Assembly (NCBI RefSeq): GCF_900103165.1
Contig: NZ_FNKY01000001.1
Coordinates: 1,054,001-1,118,000 of the forward strand
Source of the DNA: Nitrosospira multiformis
GTDB lineage: Bacteria; Pseudomonadota; Gammaproteobacteria; Burkholderiales; Nitrosomonadaceae
Length of the DNA stretch: 64,000 nt
Reading direction: 5' to 3'
Shown here: positions 23,876 through 63,254 of the stretch, in pieces
Layout of the letters: each line of letters starts with the position of its first letter
Numbering within the stretch: position 1 is the stretch's first letter
Notes under the pieces: generated by a model
What the model was told of the DNA's origin: nothing
The model's database searches: none
What the model saw: only the letters and a program-made list of their open reading frames with translations
Made by a program: the position numbers and the translations under genes

Positions 23876-24682
23876 CTAGGACAGGGGGCTGGAACGGCGC
23901 CGGGCGATAGTACCCACCAGAGCCAGACCGGCCAGAAGCATCGCCCAGGTTTCAGCTTCCGGGACAGGAGAAACGGTAAGCTCTCCGGCGCTGCTCAGTG
24001 TCACCGTACCCAATAACGCCGCGTTCACGATAGCGGTATTGGAGGTCCCGTTTCTTGTGATTTCGTAAAAACTCAGGCTCTGTCCTAATCCCGCAGTCGT
24101 ATCGAAATTAGCTTTGGTATTCCAATTGGAACCATGCGCAAACTCATAGGATGCATAGTCGGCGGAGCCGTCTTTCAGATGCAGGTAGGTATTTCCCCCC
24201 ACAAACCCGGGGGCGTCTATGGCGCCTTGGCCTCCGTTCGCGCCCGCTGCGCTTGCCGCAGTAATATAAGAATTGACGTTACCAGCCCAAGCAAGCAATT
24301 GAAGATTGCGGGTGCCTGCAGGAGTGCCATCAGCGGGACCCGTGGTCAAATAGCTGACGGGATCTCCATCTATCGAACCGCCATTGGTATCCGCTGCTAT
24401 CAGGTTCCATTTGATATCCGCCACATGGGATGGGCCTACAGCGGAGAGAAACGTATTCCAGTTCGCGTCGGCGGCCAGGTTGTGGGAGATTCCCGCGAAG
24501 GATGAATTGATGTCATCTTTGCGCAAGCCGGTATCCCATGCAAAGGTATAACCGCTCACGGATTCATATGCATTGAACAATACCGAGCTATTCCCCGCCG
24601 TACCGGTATATGCGGCAAAAGCGGAACCTGAAGTGGCTAGCGCCACCACGGCCGCGAGATATTTGATCTTGTTGGATTTCAT
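23876..24682 (-). CDS. PEP-CTERM sorting-domain protein
   Basis: A 268-residue exported protein with a signal peptide ending SGSAFA. A Gly/Ala/Asn-rich passenger has no recognised domain. The C-terminal sorting signal VPEAETWAMLLAGLALVGTI is followed by ARRR. The motif has Ala where many have Pro, which is tolerated in the family. PEP-CTERM proteins are cut by an exosortase (not in this window) and linked to exopolysaccharide or biofilm matrix. The ATG at 24682 has AAGGAG eight bases upstream, so it is preferred over an in-frame GTG at 24691. Confidence 0.88.
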   Translation of the reverse strand: MKSNKIKYLAAVVALATSGSAFAAYTGTAGNSSVLFNAYESVSGYTFAWDTGLRKDDINSSFAGISHNLAADANWNTFLSAVGPSHVADIKWNLIAADTNGGSIDGDPVSYLTTGPADGTPAGTRNLQLLAWAGNVNSYITAASAAGANGGQGAIDAPGFVGGNTYLHLKDGSADYASYEFAHGSNWNTKANFDTTAGLGQSLSFYEITRNGTSNTAIVNAALLGTVTLSSAGELTVSPVPEAETWAMLLAGLALVGTIARRRSSPLS

Positions 24683-50524: not shown

Positions 50525-51296
50525 GCCTACGTTGGCGTCTAAATACTAGCCCAATTAAAGCTGCAAGACTCAAAAGGGCAAGGGTGGGCGGTTCTGAAAC
50601 CGGAACCAAAGTTCCCTGCCAATCGTAAGACATAATATTGTTGCTGAACGACATGTTACTGAAAATAACTCTGCCTTCCTGCTGCTGAGTCGGCATTTGA
50701 ACCGATAACCCGGTGTATAGCGTGTGTAGATCTACCACAAAAGATGATCCATTCGCGCGTACTAGCGACGCCGTAGTAGAAACTTCGATGCTTGTAGGAT
50801 CAAGCTGTGTCCAAATCCAGTGGTAGTCAGTTACGAATACAAGGTCGGTTGGACCATTGTATGTACCATTGACATCGGCCGTATAATTCAACATGTTGCC
50901 TATCGTCGACATATGAGTCGTTACACTAATTTGGTCGCCCGGCAGCGAAGGCCACATCGCTACTCGACCTGCATCGTAATTTCCTCCACTTAGATCGAAG
51001 AGGTTTAGGGCACCCCCAGACGTGTGAACACCTAATGCGCTGTTTGAGGTCGTCCAGGAATTTCCAAGTGCGAATGGGCTGATATTGCTAGGAATCGACG
51101 TAAAATCAACTTGAACATGACTAAGAGTATTACCTGTTACATCCGTCTGGCCGGTCGCGGTTGCGATAATTGGTACACCATTAATCTGTCCTGTATAGTC
51201 GCCCGAGAATTGAAATATGGGATTGGCTCGGACCAAGCCACTGAATGAAATATTCAAACAGATAACTAATGCCAATATAGAATAATTTATTCTCAT
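50520..51296 (-). CDS. PEP-CTERM sorting-domain protein
   Basis: A 258-residue exported protein with a signal peptide ending GLVRA, a beta-rich passenger of unknown family, and a C-terminal VSEPPTLALLSLAALIGLVF followed by RRQRR. The sorting motif has SEP in place of PEP, which also occurs in this family. It should be processed by an exosortase and deposited in the extracellular matrix. It is alone, on an AT-richer stretch than its neighbours. Confidence 0.82.
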   Translation of the reverse strand: MRINYSILALVICLNISFSGLVRANPIFQFSGDYTGQINGVPIIATATGQTDVTGNTLSHVQVDFTSIPSNISPFALGNSWTTSNSALGVHTSGGALNLFDLSGGNYDAGRVAMWPSLPGDQISVTTHMSTIGNMLNYTADVNGTYNGPTDLVFVTDYHWIWTQLDPTSIEVSTTASLVRANGSSFVVDLHTLYTGLSVQMPTQQQEGRVIFSNMSFSNNIMSYDWQGTLVPVSEPPTLALLSLAALIGLVFRRQRRP

Positions 51297-60199: not shown

Positions 60200-60400
60200 T
60201 TAATAGCTTATGTATATGAATCCTGGCCGGCATTGGCTGTCATTTTTTTTCGTTAAGCTTCTGACGTGCTGTAAAGCCACGCCCGTTTTGAGCCGGTCCG
60301 GAAAACCCAGAATATGCCAAAACCATGGCTTTGCTAAAGAAGCCTGTCAACATGCAGATAGCCGAAATACCAGTATGGGGGTTAGCTACAAGGAGCTAAT
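60200..60400 (+). ncRNA. Conserved leader upstream of first tandem PEP-CTERM gene (putative structured RNA)
   Basis: About 200 bases that match 61231-61420 before the next PEP-CTERM gene. Shared blocks include CGTTAAGCTTCTGACGTGCT, GTAAAGCCAC, GAGCCGG-CCGGAAAA, AGAAGCCTGT and CAGATAGCC. A possible closing stem pairs CGTGCT (60265-60270) with AGTATG (60372-60377). The second copy uses CGTACC with GGTACG at the same spacing, so pairing is kept by base changes. An inner pairing CTGT/GCAG is also retained. It could be a cis-acting RNA or simply part of a duplicated unit. Confidence 0.5.
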
Positions 60401-60528
60401 AGCCTTGGGTAATGCAGGCCATGTTAACTATATCCCAGTCTCAACAATTGACATAATCATTTCATATGATGGCCACTCCCCCAACTCATCAATACCAACA
60501 AGTAATTTTTTTAATAGGGAGACTAGAA

Positions 60529-61086
60529 ATGAAGTTGATTAAAAGTTTCGTCCTTACAAGTATATTTTGCATTTCCAGTGCCGGTGCTTTCGCTGACACA
60601 ATTACCCATCTTAATGTTGGGCCCTTGCCAACTTCGCTCGCGTATAGCAACTCATTCGCTAGCGCATCTTCAGGCTCTACATTTTTTGATGATTTTATTT
60701 TTACGATTCCTAATGGTTCCGCCAACTCAGTCACTTCGTCAATAAACCTGAGTAGTATATTGGGTCTTACCGACCTTAGGGCTCGCTTATACACGGGTAG
60801 CACGCATCAAACTGGGGCAGTTGTCCCGGGTACGCTTATGGAAGCATGGGGAACCACCGTTAACTACAGCCCAGCAGTATCTGCAACAACCGTTGTTTTA
60901 AATCCGTTGACATTGGATGCTGGCACCTACACCCTTCAAGTCAAGGGAACGGTTGCTGGTTCAGCTGGCGGCTCATACGCGGGGGTATTGAACATTTCGC
61001 CTGTACCTGAACCAGAAACTTATGCCATGCTGTTGATCGGTCTGGGTCTGATGGGCTTTATGGCACGTCGTAACAAGATTTCTTGA
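60529..61086 (+). CDS. PEP-CTERM sorting-domain protein (first of tandem pair)
   Basis: A 185-residue exported protein with a signal peptide ending GAFA. A short passenger has FASASSGSTFFDDFIFTIP, recalling FxDxF-type PEP-CTERM proteins. The sorting signal VPEPETYAMLLIGLGLMGF is followed by MARRNK. Exosortase cleavage and attachment to the extracellular matrix are expected. The ATG at 60529 has GGGAG seven bases upstream. It is followed by a strong terminator and a second PEP-CTERM gene with the same flanks but a very different passenger. Confidence 0.9.
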   Translation: MKLIKSFVLTSIFCISSAGAFADTITHLNVGPLPTSLAYSNSFASASSGSTFFDDFIFTIPNGSANSVTSSINLSSILGLTDLRARLYTGSTHQTGAVVPGTLMEAWGTTVNYSPAVSATTVVLNPLTLDAGTYTLQVKGTVAGSAGGSYAGVLNISPVPEPETYAMLLIGLGLMGFMARRNKIS

Positions 61087-61102
61087 GCTAAGCTTGATTC
61101 TG

Positions 61103-61137
61103 AGCCACAGAGAGGGGGGTCTCTTTGTGGCTTTTTT
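61103..61137 (+). terminator. Rho-independent terminator after first tandem PEP-CTERM gene
   Basis: Stem AGCCACAGAGA/TCTCTTTGTGGCT around a G-rich loop, followed by six T. It is nearly identical to the terminator at 62154-62189. Confidence 0.85.
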
Positions 61138-61230
61138 CGTTTTTAGCGACTGATAAAATTATGCCGGTATCAAGCTTGCCGGATCGACCCCAAAAGCATT
61201 CCACCCCGCACTTAGTAGAATCCAGGCATG

Positions 61231-61420
61231 CGCCTTAAAGCTCATGTTTATGAATTCTGATGGAGTATGTGCTGTCATTTTCCCTCGTTAAGCTTTTGAC
61301 GTACCGTAAAGCCACACCCGTTGTGAGCCGGGGCCGGAAAATCCAGGGTCTGCTGAAGCGCACGGATTGATGAAGAAGCCTGTGTGTGCACAGATAGCCA
61401 GAATGCTGGTACGCCATTTC
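61231..61420 (+). ncRNA. Conserved leader upstream of second tandem PEP-CTERM gene (putative structured RNA)
   Basis: Homologous to 60200-60400. The closing stem CGTACC (61300-61305) with GGTACG (61408-61413) is fully Watson-Crick here. An inner hairpin CTGTG-TGTG-CACAG lies at 61380-61393, just before GATAGCC. The distance between the stem arms is 102 bases, against 101 in the first copy. It ends about 45 bases before the start codon. Confidence 0.5.
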
Positions 61421-61465
61421 TTTGCAACATAAATCTTTGAAACCAAATTCTTGGGAGGATCGTTC

Positions 61466-62137
61466 ATGAGTTACTTGAGGCCATTGCCGGGGTTACTGTT
61501 TGCCCTCGCGATATCGGTTTATCAACCGCCCGGACACGCGGCGGTATCGACATCTTATAGTTTTGCAAATATCACGCATAGCAACGCTGGAGCCGAGGCG
61601 GATGGGGAAGCGAATCTGAATGTTGAGATGATAGATCTTGGCGGCAGTCAGGTGAGGTTCACTTTTACCAATACCTCCACCTCTTCCCTGGCCGATGTCT
61701 ACTTTGATGACGGTACGCTGCTCGGGATTGCATCCATTTCGTCCTCATCGGGGGTGAGTTTCTCGCAAGGGGCCACTCCGCTCAATCTTCCTGGTGGCAA
61801 TACCGTCAGCCCAGCCTTTGTGACAACCGCAGGCTTTCTGGCGGATTCCGACGCACCTGTCTCGCCCAACGGTGTTACCCAGGGTGAATGGCTCTCCATC
61901 GATTTCAACCTGACTGCCGGTCAGACATACAGCAATGTTATTAGCGCGCTTGCACTCCCGAACAATGGCGGAGACGGCGACTTGCGCATTGGTGTGCATG
62001 TGCAAGGGTTTGCAGCGGGTGGCAGTGAGAGCTTCATCAACATAGCTTCTCCCATCCCCGAACCTGAAGTCTATGCCATGCTTATGGCTGGCCTGGGTCT
62101 GATAAGCTTTATGGCGCGTCGTAACAAGACTTCTTAA
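61466..62137 (+). CDS. PEP-CTERM sorting-domain protein (second of tandem pair)
   Basis: A 223-residue exported protein with a signal peptide ending PPGHAA. The passenger is rich in Ser, Asn and Gly (VRFTFTNTSTSSLADVYFDD), typical of this class. The sorting signal IPEPEVYAMLMAGLGLISF is followed by MARRNK. The last 20 residues are close to those of the preceding gene while the rest differs, so the pair shares ends but not passengers. The ATG at 61466 with GGGAGG upstream is preferred over an in-frame ATG at 61451. Confidence 0.9.
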   Translation: MSYLRPLPGLLFALAISVYQPPGHAAVSTSYSFANITHSNAGAEADGEANLNVEMIDLGGSQVRFTFTNTSTSSLADVYFDDGTLLGIASISSSSGVSFSQGATPLNLPGGNTVSPAFVTTAGFLADSDAPVSPNGVTQGEWLSIDFNLTAGQTYSNVISALALPNNGGDGDLRIGVHVQGFAAGGSESFINIASPIPEPEVYAMLMAGLGLISFMARRNKTS

Positions 62138-62153
62138 GCTAAGCTTGATCCTG

Positions 62154-62189
62154 AGCCACAGAGAGGGGGGCCGCTTTGTGGCTTTTTTT
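62154..62189 (+). terminator. Rho-independent terminator after second tandem PEP-CTERM gene
   Basis: Stem AGCCACA/TGTGGCT with a G-rich loop, then seven T. About 30 bases beyond it still match the sequence after the terminator at 61103. Confidence 0.82.
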
Positions 62190-62623
62190 GTTTTTAGCGG
62201 CTGATAAAATTATTCCGGTACCTATGGTCGTCTTAATTTATGCCACTGCTGTCTGCCATGCACCGAAAGTCTCAGTGGTGTCGATTCGCAACTTTTGCCA
62301 CCGGCAGAAACGTGCCAGGAACGGACTCTCAGACGTTAAGCCGATGATGAAAAACTTGAACGAGTTTGTTTGCTACCCCCTTTCGTGCTGCTCGGCTGGC
62401 ATCACACCAGCTTTGGCCTAATAAATCCGCTTCAATAACCATGGCACGAGAGCAACTCACCTGTAACGCTTAATAGGATAGCCAACGCAGAGGTTGCCTC
62501 TGCTTTACAAATCAGATTCTTCATCTATGATAAACATGAAATCTATCCTAAATACTGTGAGATAAAGACGCGTAGCGCCAGTCACTTTTTACGTTAGGTC
62601 CCATCAATCACTGGAATGAACCC
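62190..62623. other. Intergenic region, no gene recognised
   Basis: About 430 bases with no convincing coding sequence. A segment near 62279-62338 (CGGCAGAAACGTGCCAGGAA) resembles 63167-63222 (CGGCAGAAATGTGCCACAAA), so a short repeat flanks the next gene on both sides. Confidence 0.4.
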
Positions 62624-63067: not shown

Positions 63068-63254
63068 GCGCTATTATTTTGGGTCCTAAACCCTCATGTA
63101 TCGGACCGGCCTGCGGGCGATCTTGAACATCGAGCATTCGTCATCGAGAAGCGCAGCTGCCTGATGGGTGTCGGTTTACGACCTTCGAGACGGCAGAAAT
63201 GTGCCACAAACAGTCAGTCGCCGTACCTCGAATGCAGACACTCGTCTTTAGGAC

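Follow-up and report, generated by a model that had tools for sequence, protein, structure and literature searches.

Tandem PEP-CTERM genes of Nitrosospira headed by leaders of the c-di-GMP-I riboswitch family

The two units and the closing stem of their leaders

The window, i.e. the whole stretch of 64 kb of DNA that was analysed, comes from Nitrosospira, an ammonia-oxidising soil bacterium, and contains two neighbouring PEP-CTERM genes, each headed by a leader. The first gene (60529..61086, + strand) codes for a protein of 185 aa belonging to the FxDxF family (PF07589 38.5 bits; NF038126 118.3 bits, cut-off 50), the second gene (61466..62137, + strand) for a protein of 223 aa (PF07589 27.0 bits). 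The C-terminal PF07589 motif (cut-off 20.7 bits) with a TM segment and a basic tail is present in both proteins. An intrinsic terminator consisting of a 14-pair stem and a T run is situated downstream of the first gene (61102..61138, + strand), and its counterpart is repeated after the second gene (62153..62189, + strand).

The original prediction, made from the letters of the window, stated that the two units share leader, sorting signal and terminator while their passengers differ. Both parts were confirmed. The leader repeats (60236-60305 and 61271-61340) are 83% identical, and the tail repeats (60996-61169 and 62047-62220), which contain the sorting signal and the terminator, are 85% identical. 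The passengers show 32% identity across 192 aligned residues. Orthologues of protein 2 that are 71-82% identical occur in three other Nitrosospira-group genomes. On the 3' side of the tandem a 21-bp direct repeat (CGGCAGAAAYGTGCCA core) was noted at 62302-62322 and 63191-63211, 889 bp apart, which is possibly a small dispersed element.

The arms of the closing stem (P1) were located where they had been described, at 60265-60270 and 60372-60377 in copy 1 and at 61300-61305 and 61408-61413 in copy 2, with 101 and 102 bases, respectively, between them. The P1 pairs are C-G, G.U, U-A, G.U, C-G and U-A in copy 1 and C-G, G-C, U-A, A-U, C-G and C-G in copy 2. It had been argued that several positions change on both sides and still pair. 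Only one of the six pairs does so, namely the last one (U-A to C-G); two further pairs are changed on one side (G.U to G-C and G.U to A-U). Of 11 close homologues, 8 have an unpaired C.A at the last P1 position; each copy therefore seems to have restored its pair independently by a change on one side, rather than by compensation. A genuine double change in P1 is seen at the fourth pair, which is A-U in most homologues and G-C in the genome G005. The two copies alone do not prove structural selection, and in this respect the argument was overstated; the wider set of homologues proves it by covariation, as described below, so that the claim of selection for RNA structure itself stands.

Assignment of the leaders to the c-di-GMP-I family

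The leader of unit 2 (61300..61413, + strand) could be assigned as an intact c-di-GMP-I aptamer by means of RF03167, RF01051, a window-free covariance model and the contact residues. It scored 34.8 bits with RF03167 (E 8.5e-6; gathering score 59) and 32.1 bits with RF01051 (gathering score 35), in both cases under the gathering score, which is a score cut-off and not a structural feature. The leader of unit 1 (60265..60377, + strand) gave no Rfam match to the c-di-GMP-I family at E up to 5. A covariance model that was trained on nine relatives and contained none of the window's sequences was searched across the 64 kb and detected copy 2 with 111.8 bits and copy 1 with 59.6 bits (E 4.6e-18). 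The search with a genus-wide model agrees with this result, although it is circular for the window copies. A third PEP-CTERM leader of the same genome, preceding a 293-aa PEP-CTERM gene, reached 60.2 bits with RF01051 and 64.3 bits with RF03167, both above the gathering scores. Minus-strand matches to RAGATH-6 and rli37 (E 2-3, far below gathering) were rejected as chance.

Homologues of the leader are numerous, and their covariation lies above background, so that neither of the refuting outcomes named with the original prediction occurred. In an alignment of 101 homologues (A4), which was fitted to the model and hence leans towards the model fold, 90.9% of the cells are paired and 23 of 27 pairs show two-sided changes. 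The covariation score of this alignment is 0.333, compared to 0.164 for shuffled alignments and at most 0.078 with the partner slid; none of 500 shuffles scored as high. A plain MAFFT alignment of 11 sequences (A2) agrees with the A4 fold, with less power. By the models and the covariation, what had been proposed as a riboswitch-like leader is in both copies a c-di-GMP-I (GEMM) aptamer with an enlarged P3. Family membership is established by covariance model and covariation, and binding of the ligand is predicted from it.

The conserved and ligand-binding residues of c-di-GMP-I RNAs were taken from the literature (PMC3764141). In common with the GEMM-I RNAs of RF01051, such as Vc2 and Vc1 of Vibrio cholerae, the leaders have P1, P2 and P3, and both copies retain G20, C22, A23, C44, G45, A47, A48, A49, G83 and C92. 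The ligand contacts G20, A47 and C92 (and A48) are kept in both copies and in all nine relatives, and the interhelical C44-G83 is represented by C and G in both copies. The contacts G20, A47 and C92 are situated at 60276, 60302 and 60370 in unit 1 and at 61311, 61338 and 61406 in unit 2, where C21 and G46 are found at 61312 and 61337. Copy 2 furthermore retains A25, G42, C59-G79 and, again as in RF01051, the GNRA loop on P2. The leaders differ from RF01051 in having C21-G46 for G21-C46, C24 for A24, a P3 that is ~25-30 nt longer and scores just below gathering. The family RF03167 (c-di-GMP-I-GGC) belongs to the same clan, has the same fold and gave the best Rfam bit score for copy 2. Nevertheless, filing the leaders under c-di-GMP-I-GGC was rejected, because its consensus has G47, whereas all sequences studied here, including both copies, have A47; the core pair is different as well.

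The C21-G46 form and the genes downstream

As stated above, the leaders carry the core pair C21-G46, whereas ordinary c-di-GMP-I RNAs have G21-C46. In a survey of 61 relatives searched with RF03167, a PEP-CTERM gene was found downstream of 28 of 30 C21-G46 leaders and of none of 46 ordinary-form leaders (Fisher p ~9e-19, the related genomes not being independent). For these counts one genome (G030) was assigned by its sequence, CGCAAA, and PEP-CTERM tails were called by a sequence rule that fires on 6% of background frames. A separate count of 61/66 PEP-CTERM genes refers to loci partly chosen for that feature and is not evidence.

An independent sample was obtained by searching 369 genomes across the class with RF01051, and 80 loci were examined. 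Here a PEP-CTERM gene followed 5/5 G46 aptamers and 1/69 C46 aptamers (p 4e-7). The five G46 aptamers represent four lineages, since two of the five are from one genus; these two have A21. These two A21.G46 aptamers (L450 and L451, in G293 and G405) are likewise located before PEP-CTERM genes, which suggests, as far as the sequences go, that the marker is G46 rather than C21. The lone C46 exception (L378 in G310) is an ordinary c-di-GMP-I aptamer, and its downstream product has a GlyGly-CTERM-like end (rhombosortase). At several loci (L045 in G033, L175, L192 and L221), c-di-GMP-I aptamers were clustered in twos or threes.

A pattern scan was run over 84,980 species. Among the matches listed, a PEP-CTERM gene was situated downstream in 19 of 24 cases with C at position 24 and in 25 of 63 cases with A at this position; many of the exceptions among the matches listed are deltaproteobacterial or campylobacterial genomes. 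The rule that links G46 to PEP-CTERM genes is best stated for the Gammaproteobacteria in the GTDB sense and is looser elsewhere.

The cGAMP riboswitches arose from the same fold as c-di-GMP-I. We considered whether the C21-G46 sub-form could be a variant class with a changed ligand preference or affinity, either for another cyclic dinucleotide or with a tuned affinity for c-di-GMP. Residues 21 and 46 are among the largest contributors to ligand binding in simulations (PMC9049102), but the specificity contacts G20, A47 and C92 are unchanged, and C21-G46, being isosteric with G21-C46, may have drifted neutrally in a lineage spreading together with PEP-CTERM genes. A core change that tracks a change of the downstream gene is how variant classes were recognised (PMC7266159), and the association of 5/5 versus 1/69 is of this kind; outside the Gammaproteobacteria, however, other genes often follow, as in the A24 group with its 25 of 63 among the matches listed. 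A speculative proposal of low probability is that the G46 aptamers make up a riboswitch class of their own in function, differing in the ligand that they prefer or in how tightly they bind it; in the Gammaproteobacteria this class would be reserved for exosortase-sorted matrix proteins and would link a second messenger directly to single PEP-CTERM genes. We regard the variant-class explanation as improbable.

Proposed control and recombination of the tandem

The genome contains 54 PEP-CTERM motifs, 2 exosortases (two PF09721 loci) and 20 GGDEF domains, so that both the ligand and the sorting machinery are available. Leaders of the c-di-GMP-I kind head only 3 of the 54 PEP-CTERM genes and consequently do not constitute a general control of matrix proteins. 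Two further PEP-CTERM genes, lacking a c-di-GMP-I leader, are situated in the window at 23894-23968 and 50529-50603 (both - strand).

No terminator was found between aptamer and start codon, strong terminators being present only after the genes. A terminator-type expression platform was rejected for this reason, and c-di-GMP most likely controls translation rather than termination. A candidate platform of unit 2 is a hairpin at 61433..61460 (+ strand; AUCUUU-GAAA-CCAA-AUUC-UUGG-GAGGAU) that would bury the Shine-Dalgarno sequence. It comes from energy prediction; it is also predicted for unit 2 of the genome G014 (NpAV), and in the genome G021 another fold is preferred. In unit 1 a weak anti-Shine-Dalgarno pairing is possible within 60476..60521 (+ strand), between CUCCC at 60476-60480 and GGGAG at 60517-60521, as indicated by energy folding of the single sequence. 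According to this model, c-di-GMP supplied by the many GGDEF proteins of the cell would close P1, and P1 closure would alter the access to the ribosome-binding site. Matrix-protein output would probably rise in sessile cells; that the switch acts in the ON direction is a guess. In Vibrio cholerae, the class I switch Vc1 raises the expression of a secreted colonisation factor (PMC4744006). Consensus sigma-70 sites occurred only at chance level, and a sigma-54 promoter upstream of the leaders is not claimed, since the matches are inconsistent in spacing and are lost in unit 2.

The two copies are not equally well preserved. In copy 1 a UUGA loop replaces the GNRA loop, G25, U42 and A59 are found, and P3 has mismatches, several of its pairs being lost; the closing stem and the contacts G20, A47 and C92 are kept. 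Because of the loss of the GNRA loop and of several P3 pairs, the aptamer of copy 1 is probably decayed, i.e. weak or failing, and unit 2 would be the working copy. That copy 1 keeps its closing stem despite the loss of several conserved features could also be explained if the leader bound a protein or acted by attenuation, with ligand sensing lost and the fold alone kept, and Rfam scores under gathering would agree with this. Yet copy 2 and most homologues retain every tested ligand contact, which such a hairpin does not need, and the close sibling leader in the genome exceeds the gathering scores; we consider a mere protein-binding or attenuation leader very improbable.

The tandem very probably consists of separate genes for exosortase-sorted PEP-CTERM proteins, each with a C21-G46, long-P3 c-di-GMP-I aptamer that would confer c-di-GMP-dependent translation control, with unit 2 working and the tandem itself recombining. 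The same tandem is present in G014, with 90% identity between the unit 2 leader there and copy 2; passenger 2 and its counterpart in G014, which stands under its own leader, are 81% identical. Leader 1 is 82% identical to the leader of G021 and 73% identical to copy 2. At the same chromosomal place in G021, the upstream flank and leader 1 match up to 60377 and are then followed by unit 2. Judged from the sequences, this junction reflects a recombination event within the leader by which one unit of 1035 bp was gained or lost. Between themselves the two tails in the window are 79% alike and only 55-62% alike to their closest counterparts in G014 and G021, which suggests that they were homogenised by gene conversion. 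The tandem would have arisen from, and could collapse through, homologous recombination between the leaders. In G005 the single unit (L111 1572-1643) adjoins a tRNA gene, apparently at a chromosomal place other than in NpAV and the window.

Swapped passengers between constant ends had also been taken as a sign of cassette exchange. The leader-1-like leader joined to passenger 2 in G021 and the recombination or conversion in the constant parts support this idea in part. Cassettes are not freely swapped, since the orthologues of passenger 2 are clear and stand behind their own leader. The comparison points to modular recombination of the tandem and not to a dedicated cassette system. That leaders and tails are mere recombination substrates which shuffle passengers between constant ends is hardly credible, even with the G021 joint and the tails homogenised within the genome, as neither a recombinase nor a site came to light, passenger 2 is inherited vertically (71-82%, with its own leader at 90% in G014) and the covariation demands an RNA function.

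The pairing of a c-di-GMP riboswitch with PEP-CTERM genes is not new. In Methylophaga nitratireducenticrescens GP59, c-di-GMP riboswitches precede neighbouring PEP-CTERM genes ~1 kb apart (PMC12530212), likewise a tandem of riboswitch and PEP-CTERM gene, but in another organism and with the aptamer sub-form not described there. In the open-access literature that was searched, we came across neither the C21-G46 sub-form nor its link to PEP-CTERM genes. Aquincola pepA likewise is a regulated gene for a PEP-CTERM matrix/floc protein; it differs in being controlled by RpoN/sigma-54 at the promoter, the abstract naming no riboswitch (PMC9850573), whereas the search for a sigma-54 promoter here gave nothing convincing.

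For PEP-CTERM/exosortase matrix proteins, sigma-54 is the control that we found described. The one-base signature G46 could serve as a simple finder of matrix proteins under c-di-GMP control, be it in nitrifiers, methanotrophs or sludge bacteria, and the swap of the 21-46 pair would offer a clean handle on how a ligand-adjacent base pair sets affinity or specificity.
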